From a bacterium (GTDB taxonomy: Bacteria; Lernaellota; Lernaellaia; JACKCT01), in assembly GCA_019912885.1 (NCBI GenBank), contig JAIOHV010000190.1:1-61291 (forward strand): a DNA stretch of 61,291 nucleotides, read 5' to 3'. Of the stretch, positions 10,769 through 61,291 are shown piece after piece. Positions within the stretch are counted from its first letter, which is position 1. Every line of letters begins with the position of its first letter. The notes under the pieces are model-generated. The model was not told the DNA's origin and did not search any database. It saw only the letters and a list, made by a program, of their open reading frames with translations. A program made the position numbers and the translations under genes.

Positions 10769-12709
10769 TCAGCGATCGGCCCGCATCCGATGCGCTTCGA
10801 GCGCAAGGCGCGCGGCGGTTTCGGTGCTGACCAGGCGCACGTGCGCCGGCAGAAGCTTGACGAGTGCCATGAACGAGTTTGTCAGGTTCAGCCCGCCGTC
10901 GCTTGTCATGTAGATCGCGGTGACGGTGCCCGGCGGATAATGCGCCAGCTCATCGGCCATGTTCTCCGGGCTGAGGAAAAACGGCGCCGTCAGGCCGCTT
11001 CCGCTGTTGTCGACGCCACGCCATTCGCGCGGTCGAAACAGCACGACCTCGCCGCCGCCCGCGCCCGGGAGCACCTTGAAAAACTGATCGGGATTCGGCC
11101 ACGTGAACGTCGGGAACATGTACGGGACGTTGACGGGAAACACGCCCTCGATGACGCCGTGTTCGGCGTATTTCGGCAGAAACACCGTTTCCGCGTCGCG
11201 CCACGTGGTCGCCCAGTCCCAATGCACCGTGCCGGTGATGTCGAGAAGGCGCGCGTCGTTTTCCGTCGCGGCGACGAACGCCTCTTGCATATCGCCCGGC
11301 ATCGACGCGGGGTACGCATACAGGTGCCCGCTTGGCGGCAGCGTGAAGTAGTCCTTCCCCGTTTGCCGGCTCATCGCGTAGTACCACTCGAGGATATCCG
11401 GCGCGATGCGCGTCAGGTGCGGAGAGATCGACCACGTGATCGGCTCGCACGAATTGTCCGGCTTTTCGCAATCCGCCAGGCGCTCGGCAAGCCAGCGGCT
11501 GCGCGCGTCCATGATGTACGACACGTTGTCGCCGTCGCCGATGATGAACGCCACGTATGTTTTCGCGGGATCGTACGCGATATCCTCCGGCGGGTTCTGC
11601 TCCACCTCGCCCACGTTTTCGATCGGCGCGCGCCGCCGCGAGTAGAACGACAGGTTGTTCGTGAACGACGTGGGGATCGCGCCCATGTTGCCCGCGTCCG
11701 TGCATCGCGTGTGCGCCTCGAAGAGGTATCCGCCAAAGACGAGCCAGGAATCGTTGTAGCCAAAAACGCCGATGGGGCGCAGCCAGGGATTCTCCACGAC
11801 GATCTCGCTTAACAGCGCGCCTTCCTCGCCCGATTCGAAGCACCCGTTGACAAGGAAGATGACGAACAGCTTTTCGGAGAACACGAAATCGACGAGGGAC
11901 GCGTTGACGTCGCCGGTCAGCGCGGGATCCCAATAGCGCTTGTCGTTCTGGTCGTATCCGGGATTCATCATTGCAAGACCGGTCGTGTCGTCGACGAAAT
12001 TCTCGTAGACGTATTTCGTCGCGAGGTACGGCGTGTCGCGCGAGGCGAACTCGGCGATGGCGTCAAACACCGGATCGACGCACGTCACCGGCAGGCTGTC
12101 GTCGAGCGGCACCGCGCCAAGCGCCGCGCCGGCGGTGAGGATGTTCGGCACGATCTTTTGCTGCGTGTCATACGAATATCGAACGCACGCGCCAACTTTC
12201 GCGACGCAACTCGCGAGAAACTTTTCGGCGCCGATCGTCTCTTCGGGCACGAGGCCAAGGTCGACCAGCCACTCGTCGTCCTTGTCCTTCATCCTGACGA
12301 AGATCGAACCGCCGAGATTGCGATTCGACAAACCGCTGCACGCCTGCACCGCGATTTTCATCGCTGGCGAGGCGGCGTCGGGAAGCTCCACGAGCGTGAA
12401 CGCCTCGGCCACCGCGTCGTCGTCGACGGTGTCGTCATCGGCGTCATCATCGTTGGAATCGTCATCGTCGAACGCATCGTCGTCATTCGAGTCGTCGTCA
12501 TCGTTTGCATCGTCATCGATGTCGTCGTCGCCTATGTCGTCATCGGTGTCGTCGGACACGTCGTCGTCGATGCGCGGCAGCGCGCCGGTGTCGTCGACCG
12601 GCCCCGAATTGTCGGAAGGATCGTCCGCGCACGAACAACCGCCCACGCCGGACGCAACGGCCAGGCAAACGAAAACGACGAACATCACGCGGAAAATATG
12701 TGTCCTCAC
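10769..12709 (-). CDS. Asp-rich-linker lipoprotein, GxGYxYP-like putative glycoside hydrolase
   Basis: The GTG at 12709 is preferred because GAGGAGG lies just upstream, giving 646 residues. A signal peptide ends at a lipobox V-G-G-C with Cys about 25. Residues about 28-108 are a low-complexity linker of Asp runs separated by Ser, Asn, Ala, Ile and Thr. The globular part includes V-A-F-I-I-G-D-G-D-N near 385 and P-P-S-G-H-L-Y-A-Y-P near 456, which resemble the GxGYxYP family of putative glycoside hydrolases. It is probably exported and lipid-anchored with the domain held away from the membrane by the acidic linker. The enzymatic role is inferred from the short motif only. Confidence 0.65.
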   Translation of the reverse strand: MRTHIFRVMFVVFVCLAVASGVGGCSCADDPSDNSGPVDDTGALPRIDDDVSDDTDDDIGDDDIDDDANDDDDSNDDDAFDDDDSNDDDADDDTVDDDAVAEAFTLVELPDAASPAMKIAVQACSGLSNRNLGGSIFVRMKDKDDEWLVDLGLVPEETIGAEKFLASCVAKVGACVRYSYDTQQKIVPNILTAGAALGAVPLDDSLPVTCVDPVFDAIAEFASRDTPYLATKYVYENFVDDTTGLAMMNPGYDQNDKRYWDPALTGDVNASLVDFVFSEKLFVIFLVNGCFESGEEGALLSEIVVENPWLRPIGVFGYNDSWLVFGGYLFEAHTRCTDAGNMGAIPTSFTNNLSFYSRRRAPIENVGEVEQNPPEDIAYDPAKTYVAFIIGDGDNVSYIMDARSRWLAERLADCEKPDNSCEPITWSISPHLTRIAPDILEWYYAMSRQTGKDYFTLPPSGHLYAYPASMPGDMQEAFVAATENDARLLDITGTVHWDWATTWRDAETVFLPKYAEHGVIEGVFPVNVPYMFPTFTWPNPDQFFKVLPGAGGGEVVLFRPREWRGVDNSGSGLTAPFFLSPENMADELAHYPPGTVTAIYMTSDGGLNLTNSFMALVKLLPAHVRLVSTETAARLALEAHRMRADR

Positions 12710-54635: not shown

Positions 54636-55511
54636 TTACGGTCGGATAACGACCTTTGCCAGGATTTCCGGACGAGTGACGCCCTGCGCGCACTCCATCC
54701 ACACAAGCCAACCCGTCTTGAACTTGAGCGCCTTGTAAACGCTCTCGGTCGTCAGCGCCTGACGGATCGCCCACTTTCCGATCTCCTCGTCCGGGACGAT
54801 GATGACCTCGGCCAAATCCGCGGCCGCCGTGGTGAGGATGTTCGCGCCGCCGAACACCTTGTAGATGCCCTTCTGACGCAGTTCGAGTTTGGTCTGCGGA
54901 TCGATCCCCTGCCACGAACGCATGTCGTTGAAGCGCCCGCCGCGCATGATGATCGTGCCCGGCGCAAGCTCCAGGTCCTCGAGGATGGACAGCGCCTCGT
55001 TGAGCGCTTCCTCGGTCAGCTTCCCGCCGCTCGTCACCGTGACGGTGTTCTCCGGGGGTACGGCGGCGCTGATGACGGTGATCGTCCGCTTGTCGATCTC
55101 CTTGCGGATCTCGTTGGCGGCCGCCTTTTGGATGTCGGTGAGCGTGCCGATGTTGCCGTGCTTCAAAACCGAGATATCGACCATCGGAGTCGAGTGAATC
55201 CGGTTGATCGGGAATTCCACCTCGTCTTCGCCCAGCACCGACTCCTGCGCTTCGCCGTTCCGGGAAATCCAGTACGCCTTCACTTTCGGCTTCTTCTGGT
55301 ATTTCGCGGGTTCGCCCTTCGGCAGGTTCTGCTTCGTGAGCAGGAGCGAGGTGATCTCTTTGCGCTTGATCTCCATGTCGATGGGAGCGGCGATGGCGGT
55401 CGCGAGCGCCTTCAGGCCTTCCTCGGAAGAAACCGCCTCGGAGAGCAGCGCGGCCATCGCCTCCATGTATTCCTGGGAATGAACGTCGATTGCGGTCAGG
55501 TCCATTTTCAT
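54636..55511 (-). CDS. major capsid protein
   Basis: The 291-residue protein is of the HK97-fold type: an N-terminal helical arm, an E-loop-like stretch with K-Q-N-L-P-K-G-E-P-A-K-Y near 60-71, and a P/A-domain with P-G-T-I-I-M-R-G-G-R-F-N near 183-194. The C-terminal segment reads W-A-I-R-Q-A-L-T-T-E-S-V-Y-K. It lies after the decoration gene and the protease-scaffold gene, the usual order of head genes. A predicted propeptide cleavage site is not obvious. If the protease acts, it may trim only the scaffold. Confidence 0.8.
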   Translation of the reverse strand: MKMDLTAIDVHSQEYMEAMAALLSEAVSSEEGLKALATAIAAPIDMEIKRKEITSLLLTKQNLPKGEPAKYQKKPKVKAYWISRNGEAQESVLGEDEVEFPINRIHSTPMVDISVLKHGNIGTLTDIQKAAANEIRKEIDKRTITVISAAVPPENTVTVTSGGKLTEEALNEALSILEDLELAPGTIIMRGGRFNDMRSWQGIDPQTKLELRQKGIYKVFGGANILTTAAADLAEVIIVPDEEIGKWAIRQALTTESVYKALKFKTGWLVWMECAQGVTRPEILAKVVIRP

Positions 55512-55518
55512 GCCCTCC

Positions 55519-55890
55519 TTAGACCAGCAGCTTGAACTTGAGCACGCCGCCGGACATCGAGATGGCCTGCGCCACGATGACGTCCCCGGCCTGCGCGCCG
55601 TTCGTGAGGTTGTGGTTCGTGGCGTGGACCTTCAGCCGCTCGCCCGCCTGGATCGTGCCGGTGAAGTTGTCCGTTTCGTACACGCCGCCGCCGGTGTAGA
55701 TCGTCGGCATCTCGCCCGACTTCACGTCCCGGAACAGAATCCCGAACGCCGGTTCCGTCGCGTCATCGGCGACCGCGAACAGGTCGTCGCCCACCAGCTT
55801 CATCACCGATCCGCACACCGCGTCGCCCTGGACGAATCCGTCGCCGTAGGCGATCCCGGTGTCGTGCTTCACATCCAGATAATGGGACAT
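55519..55890 (-). CDS. capsid decoration (cement) protein
   Basis: The 123-residue beta-rich protein, ending in S-G-G-V-L-K-F-K-L-L-V, starts 2 bases from the stop of the fusion gene. It resembles decoration/stabilising proteins (gpD-like) found between scaffold and major capsid genes in many phages. A run G-D-D-L-F-A-V-A-D-D-A-T-E near 34-46 is a surface-type loop. Identity comes from order, size and beta-sandwich pattern. Confidence 0.7.
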   Translation of the reverse strand: MSHYLDVKHDTGIAYGDGFVQGDAVCGSVMKLVGDDLFAVADDATEPAFGILFRDVKSGEMPTIYTGGGVYETDNFTGTIQAGERLKVHATNHNLTNGAQAGDVIVAQAISMSGGVLKFKLLV

Positions 55891-55891
55891 G

Positions 55892-56461
55892 TCACGCTAC
55901 CTCCTGGCTCACGTTGGCCTTGTAAGCCGCCATGAATCCGGTTCGCAGTTTCTCCTCGAGGTTCGCGGGCTTCTTGTCGTCCACGACGAGCGGATCGATC
56001 CCCGCGTCGGCCTTCATCCGGGGCTTCAGCGACGCCTCGGCTTTCTTCGTCAGATCGCCGGGCAGCGGCGGCTTGGCCGGATCGTCCTTCTTGGGCGTGG
56101 TGAGCGAGTCGATGACCTGCTCCGTCGCCAGAATCGCCTCCTCGGTCAGTCCGGCCAGGCGATTGAGTTCCGCCGTGCGCGCCTCGTCGCTCTCGAAGCT
56201 GCGGCCTTTGCCTTCCCACTTCTTGAGCACCGTCTCGGCCTTGGCCCGCCGCGCGGCCGCCGCCTGTTCGGTTTCCAATTCCGAGATGCGCGTTTGCGCC
56301 TCCTCGAGTTGCTTCTTGAGTTTCTTGTTCTCCAGGCGCAGCTTTTTCAGTTCCGCGTCCGGACCGTCCGTCGACGGCTCCTCGGCGGGAGCCTCCCCGC
56401 CCGGATCTTCCTGGTCCAGGAACTCGTCCTGGCCCTTGCTCTGCTTGCTCTTGTCGGCCAT
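55892..56461 (-). CDS. scaffold protein from an internal start within the fusion gene
   Basis: An in-frame ATG at 56461 follows AAAGGAG with 6 bases between, the strongest ribosome-binding site in the gene. It would yield 189 residues: an acidic N-terminal segment (E-F-L-D-Q-E-D-P-G-G), a coiled coil with E-L-K-K-L-R-L-E-N-K-K-L-K-K-Q and a C-terminal basic/helical piece for capsid binding. The layout is the same as lambda C/Nu3, where scaffold is made from inside the protease gene. It is not seen as a separate frame. Confidence 0.75.
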   Translation of the reverse strand: MADKSKQSKGQDEFLDQEDPGGEAPAEEPSTDGPDAELKKLRLENKKLKKQLEEAQTRISELETEQAAAARRAKAETVLKKWEGKGRSFESDEARTAELNRLAGLTEEAILATEQVIDSLTTPKKDDPAKPPLPGDLTKKAEASLKPRMKADAGIDPLVVDDKKPANLEEKLRTGFMAAYKANVSQEVA

Positions 56462-59347
56462 GCGTTTCTCCTTTCCTGCGGTGAGCGCAGTCGAACCGTG
56501 GTAGCTGGCAACCTTCTTGATCCGCGCGTTTTCGTCCGCGCCCTTCTTGTCGAGCAGGCCCACGCCGGTGAACACAACGCCGTGCAAAATCTCGAAGCAC
56601 GGCTTGCCCTGGTACGCGCCGCCCTTGTAGTTCTTGAGGTGGACGCAATACTCGGCCTTGCTCTTGACCTTTTTTCCGCAGATCGAGCACTCGCCCTCGG
56701 CGTAATCGCACTCCATCGAGACCTGCCGGATGATCCCCTTGCGGACGAGCGCGTAGGCCTGGCGCGCCGCTTCGGTCACGCCGGTGTAAATCTCTCCCAC
56801 GCACTCGATGCGGCTCTGCTCGCCGTCCTCGACGTATTCCGAAGACACGACGCCGCCGACGATGTCGCGGAAGTCCTGGCTGTGGGCGACGTCGATCTTC
56901 GTGCCGACCACGGTCTGATAGGCCTTCCGGCATTCCTCTTCGGTGAAATAATCGCCGTTCTTGTTCGCGCCGACGTGCGTCAGGACGAATGAGAACCGCT
57001 TGTCGCCCTCGTCGGTCTGCGCCTGCGCGATCAGCGACTTGGTGATGACCTGCCCGGTGATCCGGGTGTGGAAGTTGGCGTGCGCGTTCGCCTGCGCCGC
57101 GAGCGGGCCGCTCGCCACGAAGAGCAGTTCCTGGGCGTCGGCCCCGCCGCCCGGCGCGCCGTAACGGGCGATGTTGTAGCGCACGTCCATGCGCTTCACT
57201 GCGACCTGGCCGAAGCGCTTTTTGAGCATCTCGACGACTTCCGGCTCGCGCGGGAACGCCTTGTCCCGATAGGACATGAGGATCGACTTGGCGCGGGATT
57301 TCTCCACCACGTCACCGATCAGCGCCGCGATGGTGTCCTTGTTGTACTTGGTGCCGGATTCGTAATCGCGGCGGGCATTGTCGCGGATTTGCTTGCCCGC
57401 CCACATCGTCATGAGGCCCTCGACGAAGTGCATCTTGCCTTCGTAATCGTTGGCCCCGAACTCGGTGATGTAGGGCGGATCGGCGTAAACCAGGTCCACG
57501 TCGAGCTTCGGCAGGATTTCCCGGACCTCTCCGCAGAACGCCTTGCACGGCGTCCCCGAATCGAACACGAGATTGTTGATCTTGCGGACGTTCTTCACGA
57601 ACAGGTCTCGGAAATCCTCAATCGGGATCTCGCCGAGGCTCGTATCGCGTTTCGACTCGTCCTCGGGCTTGCCGGTCATGCCTTTCTTGCTGCGTCCGAA
57701 TTCACCGAACCGCGCCTTCGTCATGCAGGCGTAGCCCATCGCAAAGAGCGCGATGTCCTTTTTGTAGCCGGGCAGCTTCTGCGCGTTGGCCCAGGTGTTG
57801 TCCAGGAAATGTAGGATTTCCGGCGTGAAGTAGTAGTCGGTGAACGTCTTCTCGCAGAACTTCCCGGCGTCGGGATTCTCGGCGAGGAGCGCCTCGATCT
57901 CAGCATCGGAAACCGTCTCGGTGTGATTCTCCACTACGGCCCGGGCGATGTGCCACGGGTAGCGCATCAGATCGCTGGCGTAGACCGTCAGCCCTTTGTG
58001 CTTGAAGAAATACGCGACGTTCCCGCCGCCGGAAAACGCGTCCAGCATGGACTTCGCATCCTGCGGGCTGTTCTTCCAAATCCATTCCAGCGCGAAATAC
58101 TTGCTGCCCATGTACGGCGAGACGCGGACCTTGTCGTCGGCCGCGAACGCCGAAAGCAGGTCGAGATCGCAGTCGCCGAGCGCGCACAGACCCAGGTCAT
58201 GGAAGTCGGCGGCTTCGTCCATTTCCTGCGCCGCCTCTTTCGCCGAGCACAGGAACAGGTGTTCCTTCGCGTTGCTGGCATCGCCGTGCTTCGCGCTAAT
58301 CTGGTAGTGGTGGTCCTTGCTCTTGAGGGAAACATCCCGGCCCAAATCCGCGATGATCCGCTTCACCTCGTTCTCGGTCGGGTACGCCTGGTCGCGGTAG
58401 CTGATGATCCAGTTGCGGATGTGCGTGCAGGCCCCGAGGAAATCCCTGAAGAAGTTGGCCGCGTTGGTCTTCGTCATCCCGGATTTCTCGATCCGGTAAA
58501 TCTTGGTTTTGGTGCCCTCCTTGATCTCCTTGCCATCCCAATACGTCATCAGCCCTTCCACGAAGTGGTAGGACCGCTCGTAATTGGTCTGCGAGAAGTG
58601 CGTCGCATACGGCGGGTCGAAGTATGCGAGGTCGGCCTTCACCTGCGGGCCGACGTCCATGATGTCGGCGCACGCCGCCCGGCACGGTTGGCCGTTGTCG
58701 AAGGCGAGCGAGTTGATCGTATGGACGTTGTCGGCGAAGCGCTGCTTGAACCGTTCCGGGCTGTCCTGGCGGCCGCCGTGCGGGATCGTGGTACCGAAAT
58801 GCCCGAAGCCGCCCTTGCCGGTGATGCAGGACTTCCCCAGCGCGAAAAGGGCGATGTCCCTCTTGAAGCCGTCCGCGGGGAGCTTGTCGATGTTGGCTCG
58901 GATGGAATCGATGATCCCGTGGACGCCGTCGGAGAAATAGATGCCCGCGAAGTGCTTGCGGACGAAGTCGCCCGCCGCCGGGTTATCACTCAAAAGCGCC
59001 GCGATCTCGTCGTCGGTGATCGTCTCGCCGGGGTTTTCGATGATCGCGCGGGCGATGTGGTAGCAGTAACGGAGCTTGTCGTTGGCGGTAACCGCCTTGC
59101 CCTTCTGCTTGAACATGAACCCGACGACCGACGAGCCGGAGAAAAGGTCGGCCACGACGCGGGCGTCGTCCGGCGTGTTCTCCCAGATGAAGTCGATCAG
59201 CTTCTGCTTGCTGCCGATGTAGTTGGTGACGTAGCGGCGCTGCTCGTCGGCGGCCTGGGCGCAAAGCTGCTCGTCGCCGAAGAGCGCAATCTCCGCTTCC
59301 GCTTCGAGCAGGAAAGTCAGCCGGTCCATGTCGGTTTGCAGCGCCAC
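55892..59347 (-). CDS. double D12-class adenine methyltransferase fused to prohead protease and scaffold
   Basis: One uninterrupted frame of 1151 residues (numbered from the GTG at 59347, chosen for GGAG 5 bases before) holds four units. Methyltransferase 1: Y-I-G-S-K near 43-47, motif I D-L-F-S-G-S near 67-72, motif IV D-P-P-Y near 244-247. Methyltransferase 2: Y-M-G-S-K near 412-416, D-A-F-S-G-G-G near 436-442, D-P-P-Y near 623-626. Protease-like: about 760-950, candidate catalytic His near 822 (A-H-S-Q) and Ser near 877 (R-Q-V-S-M-E), with a C-S-I-C ... C-V-H zinc-type insert. Scaffold: charged coiled coil about 994-1040. The methyltransferases would make N6-methyladenine. The protease and scaffold shape the prohead. 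A separate start at 56461 can yield scaffold alone. Confidence 0.85.
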   Translation of the reverse strand: MALQTDMDRLTFLLEAEAEIALFGDEQLCAQAADEQRRYVTNYIGSKQKLIDFIWENTPDDARVVADLFSGSSVVGFMFKQKGKAVTANDKLRYCYHIARAIIENPGETITDDEIAALLSDNPAAGDFVRKHFAGIYFSDGVHGIIDSIRANIDKLPADGFKRDIALFALGKSCITGKGGFGHFGTTIPHGGRQDSPERFKQRFADNVHTINSLAFDNGQPCRAACADIMDVGPQVKADLAYFDPPYATHFSQTNYERSYHFVEGLMTYWDGKEIKEGTKTKIYRIEKSGMTKTNAANFFRDFLGACTHIRNWIISYRDQAYPTENEVKRIIADLGRDVSLKSKDHHYQISAKHGDASNAKEHLFLCSAKEAAQEMDEAADFHDLGLCALGDCDLDLLSAFAADDKVRVSPYMGSKYFALEWIWKNSPQDAKSMLDAFSGGGNVAYFFKHKGLTVYASDLMRYPWHIARAVVENHTETVSDAEIEALLAENPDAGKFCEKTFTDYYFTPEILHFLDNTWANAQKLPGYKKDIALFAMGYACMTKARFGEFGRSKKGMTGKPEDESKRDTSLGEIPIEDFRDLFVKNVRKINNLVFDSGTPCKAFCGEVREILPKLDVDLVYADPPYITEFGANDYEGKMHFVEGLMTMWAGKQIRDNARRDYESGTKYNKDTIAALIGDVVEKSRAKSILMSYRDKAFPREPEVVEMLKKRFGQVAVKRMDVRYNIARYGAPGGGADAQELLFVASGPLAAQANAHANFHTRITGQVITKSLIAQAQTDEGDKRFSFVLTHVGANKNGDYFTEEECRKAYQTVVGTKIDVAHSQDFRDIVGGVVSSEYVEDGEQSRIECVGEIYTGVTEAARQAYALVRKGIIRQVSMECDYAEGECSICGKKVKSKAEYCVHLKNYKGGAYQGKPCFEILHGVVFTGVGLLDKKGADENARIKKVASYHGSTALTAGKEKRMADKSKQSKGQDEFLDQEDPGGEAPAEEPSTDGPDAELKKLRLENKKLKKQLEEAQTRISELETEQAAAARRAKAETVLKKWEGKGRSFESDEARTAELNRLAGLTEEAILATEQVIDSLTTPKKDDPAKPPLPGDLTKKAEASLKPRMKADAGIDPLVVDDKKPANLEEKLRTGFMAAYKANVSQEVA

Positions 59348-59358
59348 GCTCGCTCCAC

Positions 59359-59411
59359 AAAACAAAAGCCCCGGCGAAGCGGGAATTTTTCATCCCAACT
59401 TCACCGGGGCT
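59359..59411 (-). terminator. hairpin terminator before the methyltransferase-protease gene
   Basis: On the - strand AGCCCCGGTGAAG and CTTCGCCGGGGCT form a 13-bp stem with one G-U wobble, enclosing a GGGA/TCCC inner stem and followed by TTTGTTTTG. It ends a transcript from the head-region genes upstream, about 40 bases after the small gene's stop. The flank 59405-59429 is a near copy of 48341-48365. Confidence 0.85.
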
Positions 59412-59447
59412 CGATGGTTTCGACGACCCCGAAGGTCTATGCGGTTG

Positions 59448-59579
59448 TCACAGGTCGGTCGGCTTCAGGCTCCGTTCGACCTTCACGTTCGAGAGCTTGC
59501 CGCTCTGGAAACTCAGCGTGAGGGTGCCGAAGAACCCTTCCGCCACGAGCTTCTCGATGAACGCGAACAGCTTACTCAT
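59448..59579 (-). CDS. very small prophage protein (43 residues)
   Basis: The frame ATG 59579 to TGA 59450-59448 encodes 43 residues: an amphipathic helix (S-K-L-F-A-F-I-E-K-L-V) and a beta hairpin G-T-L-T-L-S-F-Q-S-G-K-L. The pattern recalls the very small YezD/DUF2292-type phage proteins with a G-x-(L/V)-T-(L/I)-x-(F/V)-Q-x-G-(K/R) strand. It is placed just before the terminator that precedes the methyltransferase gene. Support is moderate: good coding pattern, weak ribosome site. Confidence 0.55.
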   Translation of the reverse strand: MSKLFAFIEKLVAEGFFGTLTLSFQSGKLSNVKVERSLKPTDL

Positions 59580-59661: not shown

Positions 59662-60000
59662 TCACTTCTTGGCGAGAGAAGCAATTACCGCGTCAATGCA
59701 CTTGCCGGAGCTTTCGTACTCGTCGGTCTCGACGGTTTCGCCGAACGACCCACGATAGGGCGACCGGCTCTCGCGCCAGTATTCCAGGAAGCCGGGATTC
59801 AAACACGGCTTGATGTCCTGCTCAACCCAGCCGTTGACGAGCCAGTTGACCTCGTCCTCGCGTTCCTCGAAGCCCGGCAGATATCCGGCGTCGAAGCCGG
59901 TCGGCGTCACGACCCACAGCCCGCAGGCGACGTAGGGATCGAGGCCCTTTTCAAACCGCTTCTCGTCATAAACGTAGTCGATCATGTACCGCAGCTTCAT
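59662..60000 (-). CDS. prophage protein of unknown function
   Basis: The ATG at 60000 overlaps the stop of the upstream gene (ATGA) and follows GAGGGGCGG, giving 112 residues. It has many Tyr, Trp and Gly residues (Y-M-I-D-Y-V-Y, W-L-V-N-G-W-V). No motif was recognised. It is co-translated with the 165-residue protein before it. Confidence 0.7.
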   Translation of the reverse strand: MKLRYMIDYVYDEKRFEKGLDPYVACGLWVVTPTGFDAGYLPGFEEREDEVNWLVNGWVEQDIKPCLNPGFLEYWRESRSPYRGSFGETVETDEYESSGKCIDAVIASLAKK

Positions 60001-60494
60001 CGGAACCGCCCCTCCACCATCTCCATGAATTCCCGGATCACACACTTTCGGCACTCCTCCACGCGCTTGGGCATGGCGTCGAGTCGCACGACGTAGGCTT
60101 TCCATTCGTCGGCAACCTCCGGGTCTTCGCTCCAGTCGAGTTCATTTATGACGATCTTGTTGCCGTCGTCGTCGAACAGGCGACCCGCATAAATCCGGCC
60201 ATCGGGCGCCCGAAGCCATTCGATCTTCGTCACGAAGTGCAGGTGGTTGCCGTGCGTGCTCGCGCCGAAATCGACGAAGCCACGGTCGATCATGAGGACC
60301 GAGTAATTCCACGCCTTCACCGAACCGTCCGGCGCGAGATCGGGATGCGCGCCCAGGACCTCCAAGCGATAGGGATGGAACGTCAGGTTGTCGCCTTCCG
60401 GGAAATACACACCGAACCAGAAGCCGTTCTTGGTGATCCCGTCGAGCGTCTCCTGCAATTTAGCCGCTTCCGTTTTTACGTCGATCTTGCCCAT
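59997..60494 (-). CDS. prophage protein of unknown function
   Basis: The ATG at 60494 starts one base after the preceding stop and gives 165 residues. A TTG 15 bases earlier is a possible alternative. It contains G-F-W-F-G-V-Y-F-P-E-G-D near 24-35 and H-G-N-H-L-H-F-V near 81-88, which could be a metal- or substrate-binding His cluster. No family was recognised. It is coupled with the genes on both sides. Confidence 0.65.
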   Translation of the reverse strand: MGKIDVKTEAAKLQETLDGITKNGFWFGVYFPEGDNLTFHPYRLEVLGAHPDLAPDGSVKAWNYSVLMIDRGFVDFGASTHGNHLHFVTKIEWLRAPDGRIYAGRLFDDDGNKIVINELDWSEDPEVADEWKAYVVRLDAMPKRVEECRKCVIREFMEMVEGRFR

Positions 60495-60495
60495 T

Positions 60496-61291
60496 TCAGT
60501 AACTCGCAAACACGATGTCCTCGATCTTCCGGCCGTCCGGCAGGGTCGAGATACCGCGCTTTTTGAAAGACATGAGAATTTCCATCCGCGCCTTCTGGGT
60601 CGGCGCGACGATGGCGTCCAGGTTGTCGACCAGAGTCACGGAGTATTTGAAAATCGTCTCGTCGCTCGCGTCGCGCTGGACAATCTTTTTCCATTGGTCG
60701 ACCTGTGACTTGCGGAGCCGCCGAACCGTGTCGCCGGTGCAGCGCCCGTATTTGTCGTTATCATACGTGATGGAGTCCATCCGGCGCAGCAGGTTCTTCT
60801 TGAAGTACAATCCGGCACTGCCGGGATTCGCCTTCGTCGGCGTCGTGCGGATGCGCGTAAAGAAATACGTCCCGCCGCCGGACTCCATGTCGGCGACCGG
60901 CGACATGCCGCCGGGCGTGATCCCGATTCGCATCTTCTCCACCGTGGACACCATAGCGCCGTTGTTCTCCAAGGCCGTTTCCACGAACTTCGCCATGTCG
61001 TTGTTGTGGGTCAGCGTGTGGCGAAGCGAGTAGCCGCTCATCTGCCGCTCCAGGTCGTTGTCGGTCAGGTCAAAACGCATCTGGACCCGGCGGCCCGCGC
61101 CTTCGAGCTTGCCGTGCGTCGCCTGCTGAAACTGCCCGAACGGATCGTAGTGCGGTAGCGCGGTCACGTCCGGCACGCCCAGTTCCGTGCTCCAGAAATC
61201 GCGCATGGCCCGCACCTGCTCCTGCTTCGTTTTGTTTTTCATCGAGGTCAGCACCTTCTTGAAGCGCGGCGAGTTGTCGATGCTCTGGATG
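60496..61291 (-). CDS. prophage head-region protein, 5' part beyond the window
   Basis: The frame is open up to the right edge, so the start lies outside. At least 264 residues are visible. It is rich in Lys/Arg and contains Y-F-K-K-N-L-L-R-R-M-D near 158-168 of the visible part and R-R-L-R-K-S-Q-V-D-Q-W-K-K. No family was recognised. It may be a minor head protein or an enzyme (an ADP-ribosyltransferase-like reading is conceivable but unsupported). It is the first gene of the visible part of the late operon. Confidence 0.6.
   Translation of the reverse strand, partial: IQSIDNSPRFKKVLTSMKNKTKQEQVRAMRDFWSTELGVPDVTALPHYDPFGQFQQATHGKLEGAGRRVQMRFDLTDNDLERQMSGYSLRHTLTHNNDMAKFVETALENNGAMVSTVEKMRIGITPGGMSPVADMESGGGTYFFTRIRTTPTKANPGSAGLYFKKNLLRRMDSITYDNDKYGRCTGDTVRRLRKSQVDQWKKIVQRDASDETIFKYSVTLVDNLDAIVAPTQKARMEILMSFKKRGISTLPDGRKIEDIVFASY

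Follow-up and report, generated by a model that had tools for sequence, protein, structure and literature searches.

The window analysed here, the whole 61,291-nucleotide contig JAIOHV010000190.1 of a Lernaellota bacterium (lineage JACKCT01; assembly GCA_019912885.1), carries on its minus strand a gene in which two D12-class N6-adenine methyltransferase units (MT1 and MT2) are joined in one frame to a prohead protease and a scaffold. The gene has the following parts:

55892..59365, minus strand: fused gene MT1–MT2–prohead protease–scaffold (unbroken frame of 1157 amino acids from TTG; one frame in about 100 relatives)
58232..59233, minus strand: MT1, first D12 N6-adenine methyltransferase unit, residues about 45–378 (PF02086; motifs; ratio of nonsynonymous to synonymous substitution rates, dN/dS)
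57131..58132, minus strand: MT2, second D12 unit, residues about 412–745 (PF02086; motifs; dN/dS)
56492..57013, minus strand: prohead protease domain, residues about 785–958, with His828 and Ser883 (match to E3 gp77; structural model; invariance)
56639..56689, minus strand: Cys3His insert of the protease, C893, C896, C907 and H909 (invariance)
55892..56461, minus strand: predicted nested scaffold gene, 189 amino acids, from the internal ATG at 56461 (conserved start with a Shine-Dalgarno, SD, sequence)
56462..56478, minus strand: putative internal ribosome-binding site CAGGAAAGGAGAAACGC before the scaffold start (SD sequence)

The 1157 residues are free of stops, which agrees with the single unbroken frame of methyltransferases, protease and scaffold described in the initial annotation. 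That annotation had let the gene begin at 59347; an in-frame GTG does lie there, but the frame itself reaches the TTG at 59365, and the first ATG, at 59329, is residue 13. Long plus-strand frames over the gene (e.g. 57923–59521, 532 amino acids) were taken as shadow open reading frames of high-GC coding DNA. An assembly or sequencing artefact joining separate genes might be suspected from the fragmented assembly (230 contigs) and from the end of the contig 1.9 kb upstream of the gene. Against this, a second full-length copy, 96% identical, is found on another contig of the same genome (C140, L032), isolate genomes including complete chromosomes carry the fusion, about 100 viral or metagenome-assembled genome (MAG) contigs hold the joined frame, and 82 complete joined frames were recovered. 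Because these relatives, which were specifically sought, share the same join, we regard the artefact as refuted, its probability being negligible, and the anatomy of the gene as practically certain. The copy on C140 represents a second prophage in this genome, and a third element (C197, L037) encodes a distant unfused protease-scaffold of 466 amino acids.

Pfam MethyltransfD12 (PF02086) matches the protein twice (E 3.5e-38, 132 bits against a curated cut-off of 22). Both units are complete, with motif I and motif IV at DLFSG (residue 73) and DPPY (residue 250) in MT1 and at DAFSG (residue 442) and DPPY (residue 629) in MT2, and the two METHYLTRANSFERASES of the window protein share about 40% identity, so that their earlier description as complete units, paralogous yet divergent, holds. 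The motif I residues and DPPY are invariant among 32 dual representatives, and DPPY is present in all 151 methyltransferase units (a stricter text pattern for motif I missed 11 of them). Comparison of the window copy with four near relatives gave dN/dS values of 0.07–0.09 for MT1, 0.05–0.09 for MT2, 0.06–0.11 for the protease and 0.14–0.16 for the scaffold; all four domains are under purifying selection. As the methyltransferase values are as low as those of the protease and the motifs are invariant, catalysis seems to be under selection, and MT1 and MT2 are apparently active N6-adenine methyltransferases. Among solved structures, an AlphaFold model of MT1–MT2 (mean predicted local distance difference test score, pLDDT, 82.8) is matched best by Escherichia coli Dam and almost as well by DpnM, and PADLOC lists type II methyltransferase models for the fused protein.

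The same data bear on the idea that the domains mainly bind DNA and tether DNA or the portal during head assembly, with catalysis incidental. Their membership in a morphogenetic protein would suit such a role, but pure binding would need neither a motif IV retained in 151/151 units nor dN/dS values of 0.05–0.09, and a sister phage (in Sulfidibacter) assembles without methyltransferases; we consider this explanation improbable.

A tree of 95 methyltransferase domains places the 82 fused units in one clade (support 100/99) apart from 13 free enzymes, and free relatives are only about 30% identical. Inside the fused clade MT1 and MT2 form separate clades, which indicates an old duplication, and most single-unit members fall into the MT1 clade. 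The window protein has only a short linker between its units. Many relatives (L138, L143, L149 and others) have a module of about 135 residues at this place, with the pattern R-x-x-DP-x-x-F...FR-x-K and without a Pfam match. In L129 (first ~190 residues) the N-terminal lead is kept and the MT1 core is gone, leaving MT2 as the sole methyltransferase.

Divergence of the units had suggested that they may recognise different sites; it is equally conceivable that they act on opposite strands of a single asymmetric site, and in many relatives one unit suffices. In a FokI-like pair of this kind each unit would methylate one strand, an arrangement that gains from the best PADLOC match (a 643-position two-domain type II methyltransferase model), from the double enzyme of Erysipelothrix phage phi1605, which adjoins a type IIS restriction enzyme, and from the intact state of both units after an old duplication. 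However, it is the C-terminal half of the phi1605 enzyme to which both MT1 and MT2 align, and the two group in a clade apart; they are thus not orthologues of the two phi1605 halves. In addition, many members keep just one unit, which makes a FokI-like pair possible but rather doubtful. A correspondence of MT1 and MT2 to the separate halves of a double methyltransferase of type IIS was rejected on comparison with phi1605, a comparison that left out FokI itself. D12-class domains are common to the window protein, type IIS double methyltransferases (FokI type) and Dam, and the type IIS enzymes likewise have two units per chain; MT1 and MT2, in contrast, stem from a separate duplication and are part of a head protein, not of a restriction system.

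The region after the methyltransferases, initially described as His/Ser protease-like with a Cys/His insert, has a prohead protease homologue. In a tblastn search, residues ~767–987 matched Mycobacterium phage head proteins and Rhodococcus phage E3 gp77, which is annotated as a prohead protease and sits in a cluster with the portal and major capsid protein; the head maturation protease family phrog_18299 gave a weak match. Across 52 relatives, His828, Ser883 and the C893-x2-C896...C907-x-H909 insert show no variation, and the insert is likely metal-binding. The proteases of E3 and of Mycobacterium phages of the I3/ET08 kind share the residues around the serine and the Cys/His insert, whereas their identity to the window protease is only about 28–36%, and no methyltransferase was matched in E3 gp77. 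Among PDB sequences phmmer found no relative. For the protease model (mean pLDDT 84.5, >90 over most of the core), the best-ranked solved structures are herpesvirus maturation proteases, at a probability of ~1 but with an E of 2e-3 at best and template modelling (TM) scores of 0.3–0.37, so that an assemblin-like fold is supported, though not proven, by the model.

The C-terminus is coiled-coil-like, as expected of the scaffold proposed at the outset, and probably constitutes a nested gene, a finding that goes beyond the initial annotation. An in-frame ATG (56461) follows the protease domain directly and is preceded by CAGGAAAGGAGAAACGC. Relatives clustered at 88% gave 53 representatives, and 44 of these have a scaffold start codon with a strong SD (at least six bases of SD complementarity, within 68 codons after the protease), compared with 18 of 631 control windows taken from other parts of these frames. 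The C140 copy differs in the amino acids and bases just before the scaffold methionine, yet the SD is kept. The gene would thus probably yield two products, free scaffold and a full-length protein ending in the same scaffold part, and by virtue of this shared part the full-length protein could enter the prohead core. The tether to the prohead proposed earlier is better grounded by the scaffold part's own internal start. Most members have no start with an SD at the methyltransferase-protease border, which suggests that methyltransferases and protease are normally made together. The exceptions are the distant single-methyltransferase members L160 (L160:4284-7358) and L161, in which GAAGGAGG is followed by ATG and this strong SD and start could yield a separate protease, and possibly L039 and L040, with AAGGAGG and then GTG.

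Relatives were collected from IMG/VR with an alignment query (94 found, 80 kept; a single-sequence query of the same viral contigs found none) and from 84,980 species genomes (31 loci). Carriers of the fusion include Desulfosarcina widdelii and D. alkanivorans, both with complete chromosomes, and the isolates D. cetonica and Desulfatitalea alkaliphila; the nearest named record with the fused gene is a 'Deltaproteobacteria' MAG (L133). Related genomes have the fusion at 92–96% identity (some cut by contig ends) and also at 53% (a 1313-residue frame), and another related genome has two single-methyltransferase copies of 871 and 874 amino acids. The host range is uncertain, as MAG hosts may be misbinned: the very similar L144, L145, L147 and L148 stand under different phyla. 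One 133-kb viral contig, IMGVR_UViG_3300001567_000262 (L057, L068), contains two dual-fusion genes ~88 kb apart.

Among 106 distinct frames, 82 are complete and joined (two methyltransferases in 50, a single one in 32), and contig ends truncate most of the remainder. In L125, L131 and L157 the gene is split, apparently by a break in sequencing or assembly and not naturally; L157 has N bases at its break. Within the close group, just one unfused member is complete and uninterrupted: a 425-residue protein of a Sulfidibacter corallicola prophage, whose 90-kb virus record contains no detectable methyltransferase relative. A further scan, in which hits were ordered by their resemblance to an unfused protease, retrieved no additional unfused members. 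In the protease tree, with distant phages as outgroup, Sulfidibacter lies at the base of the group with weak fork support (94/49). This position makes one gain of the fusion the simplest, though not proven, reading of the tree.

The view that these parts are separate genes in known phages needs qualification: the join is not unique to the window and is the rule in a large phage group. Residues 416–1155 match phrog_27806 (798 positions, 'DNA methyltransferase') with an E of 3e-295, and further methyltransferase families were matched in the PHROGs scan. Like the window protein, PHROG 27806 spans methyltransferase, protease and scaffold, but it has a single methyltransferase unit; its C-terminal part also matches the unfused Sulfidibacter protease. 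Judged from these matches, the one-methyltransferase form already belongs to this family, whose name gives no hint of the protease and scaffold.

The neighbours of the fused gene place it in a head operon:

54636..55511, minus strand: major capsid protein (phrog_2522 major head protein, E 3e-69)
55519..55890, minus strand: head cement/decoration protein (Pfam Phage_cement_2, E 2e-5)
59662..60105, minus strand: small gene directly upstream of the fusion, conserved in place (homologues in most relatives)
60496..61290, minus strand: 3' portion of an upstream gene truncated at the contig end, at the MuF place of relatives (position only; no Pfam or PHROGs family match)

Downstream of the fusion the window continues with cement, capsid, contractile sheath, tape measure and baseplate genes, while the contig ends before the portal. 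Relatives with long enough flanks show the order terminase (terL), portal, MuF, usually two small genes, fusion, cement and major capsid, with the fused gene lying between the portal/minor head genes and the major capsid gene. The fused gene belongs to a contractile-tailed phage, probably present here as a prophage. Among relatives, the MuF minor head protein encoded upstream of the fusion varies in length between about 290 and >1500 amino acids (L138:4482-9056; homologues in L038, L057 and L092), and its long form (phrog_6577) includes about 1200 residues of unknown function, possibly a further cargo of the head. In the D. widdelii prophage, the large terminase subunit (L138:4-2757) contains an intein with a LAGLIDADG domain. 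Between the host genes and the phage tail genes of the window, at 12000–36000, G+C falls from about 70% to 55%; this stretch encodes a P-type ATPase, an AcrB-type efflux pump, an outer-membrane efflux protein and an amidoligase, and looks like a separately acquired island.

From these computational observations (domains, fusion, conservation, selection, nested start and place in the head operon) we infer a protease-scaffold whose N-terminal methyltransferases may be head cargo, freed and ejected against restriction, a proposal to which we give an even chance. Two proteins would be made from the fused gene, free scaffold from the internal start and the full-length protein, and the latter would co-assemble into the prohead core through the shared scaffold, as lambda gpC does with Nu3, carrying the methyltransferases inside. 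The protease would then cut the scaffold away and probably free the methyltransferases, a pair of ~80 kDa that would be too large to leave the shell and would stay with the packaged DNA. Probable ejection with this DNA would let them methylate the genome on entry and so shield it from the next host's restriction, as for P1 DarB. The complete chain, from co-assembly through cleavage, retention and ejection to an anti-restriction role, stands at or a little under even. The broader suggestion of a general scaffold-delivery route, in which enzymes are head-loaded through N-terminal fusion to a protease-scaffold, freed, ejected and able to modify incoming DNA before restriction, is more tentative and falls somewhat short of even.

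The cargo proposal draws on the single frame kept in 82 complete distinct frames and in isolates, on the invariant motifs and low dN/dS values, on the conserved protease residues and the model's match to capsid maturation proteases, on the nested scaffold start, on the scarcity of starts at the methyltransferase-protease border and on the place in the head operon. Points against it are these: a methyltransferase in the head would be without S-adenosylmethionine until it reached a cell, a late-expressed enzyme could act on progeny DNA before packaging, and the Sulfidibacter prophage manages without a methyltransferase. Ordinary phage methyltransferases act in the producing cell, and the main rival follows this pattern: fusion to a late head protein would time the methylation of progeny DNA to the moment before packaging and direct it to the assembly site, and the enzymes would be discarded or degraded at maturation without being ejected. 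Active-site conservation and purifying selection fit this equally well, and methylation of this kind would by itself shield progeny DNA from a matching restriction enzyme, with no need for ejection. A separate gene could serve that purpose, however, and the join to the protease-scaffold across many lineages is left unexplained; action in the producing cell only is thus a serious but clearly less probable alternative to delivery of the enzymes as head cargo.

Such an arrangement would put DNA-marking enzymes inside every assembling head of a widespread and barely noticed phage group. Head-borne enzymes would represent a second, structurally simple route for phage anti-restriction methylation, built into capsid assembly itself, and a database family named 'DNA methyltransferase' is shown to be in truth a head protease-scaffold carrying a methyltransferase. 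Relatives are present as prophages or provirus-like loci in cultured Desulfosarcina, Desulfatitalea and Sulfidibacter, which makes the proposal testable.

The closest parallels to the C-terminal half of the gene are the protease genes with nested scaffolds. In lambda C/Nu3 the scaffold is nested in frame in the protease gene, and free scaffold and full-length protein share the scaffold part. Both lambda gpC/Nu3 and herpesvirus UL26/UL26.5 also make the scaffold part alone from an internal start, as is predicted here from the sequence, and in fold the window protease model comes nearest to herpesvirus maturation proteases. The window gene differs in its one or two N-terminal methyltransferases, which the lambda and herpesvirus proteins do not have. 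The C–Nu3 interaction is listed in PMC3224144.

For the N-terminal half, the nearest theme is that of virion-carried effectors. In P1, the Dar proteins, DarB methylase included, reside in the head, are ejected together with the DNA and guard that DNA against restriction, and the prohead protease cleaves off the N-terminus of DarA (PMC12810830; PMC5512222). DarB and the polyvalent proteins thus link an N6-adenine methylase to the phage head, as proposed here. DarB, however, is a methylase-SNF2 helicase with an LPD36 domain, unfused to a protease (PMC5512222; PMC12810830), whereas D12 units are fused to protease and scaffold in the window protein, in which Pfam, PHROGs and NCBIfam gave no match to an SNF2-type helicase. 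The P1 Dar proteins are known as head proteins, whereas for the window protein we infer a virion location from its scaffold part. A literature search, with most subscription journals outside its reach, found no description of a fusion between a methyltransferase and a prohead or maturation protease. The parts, the theme of the virion-carried methylase and the protease with a nested scaffold are all known; their union in one gene appears to be new.

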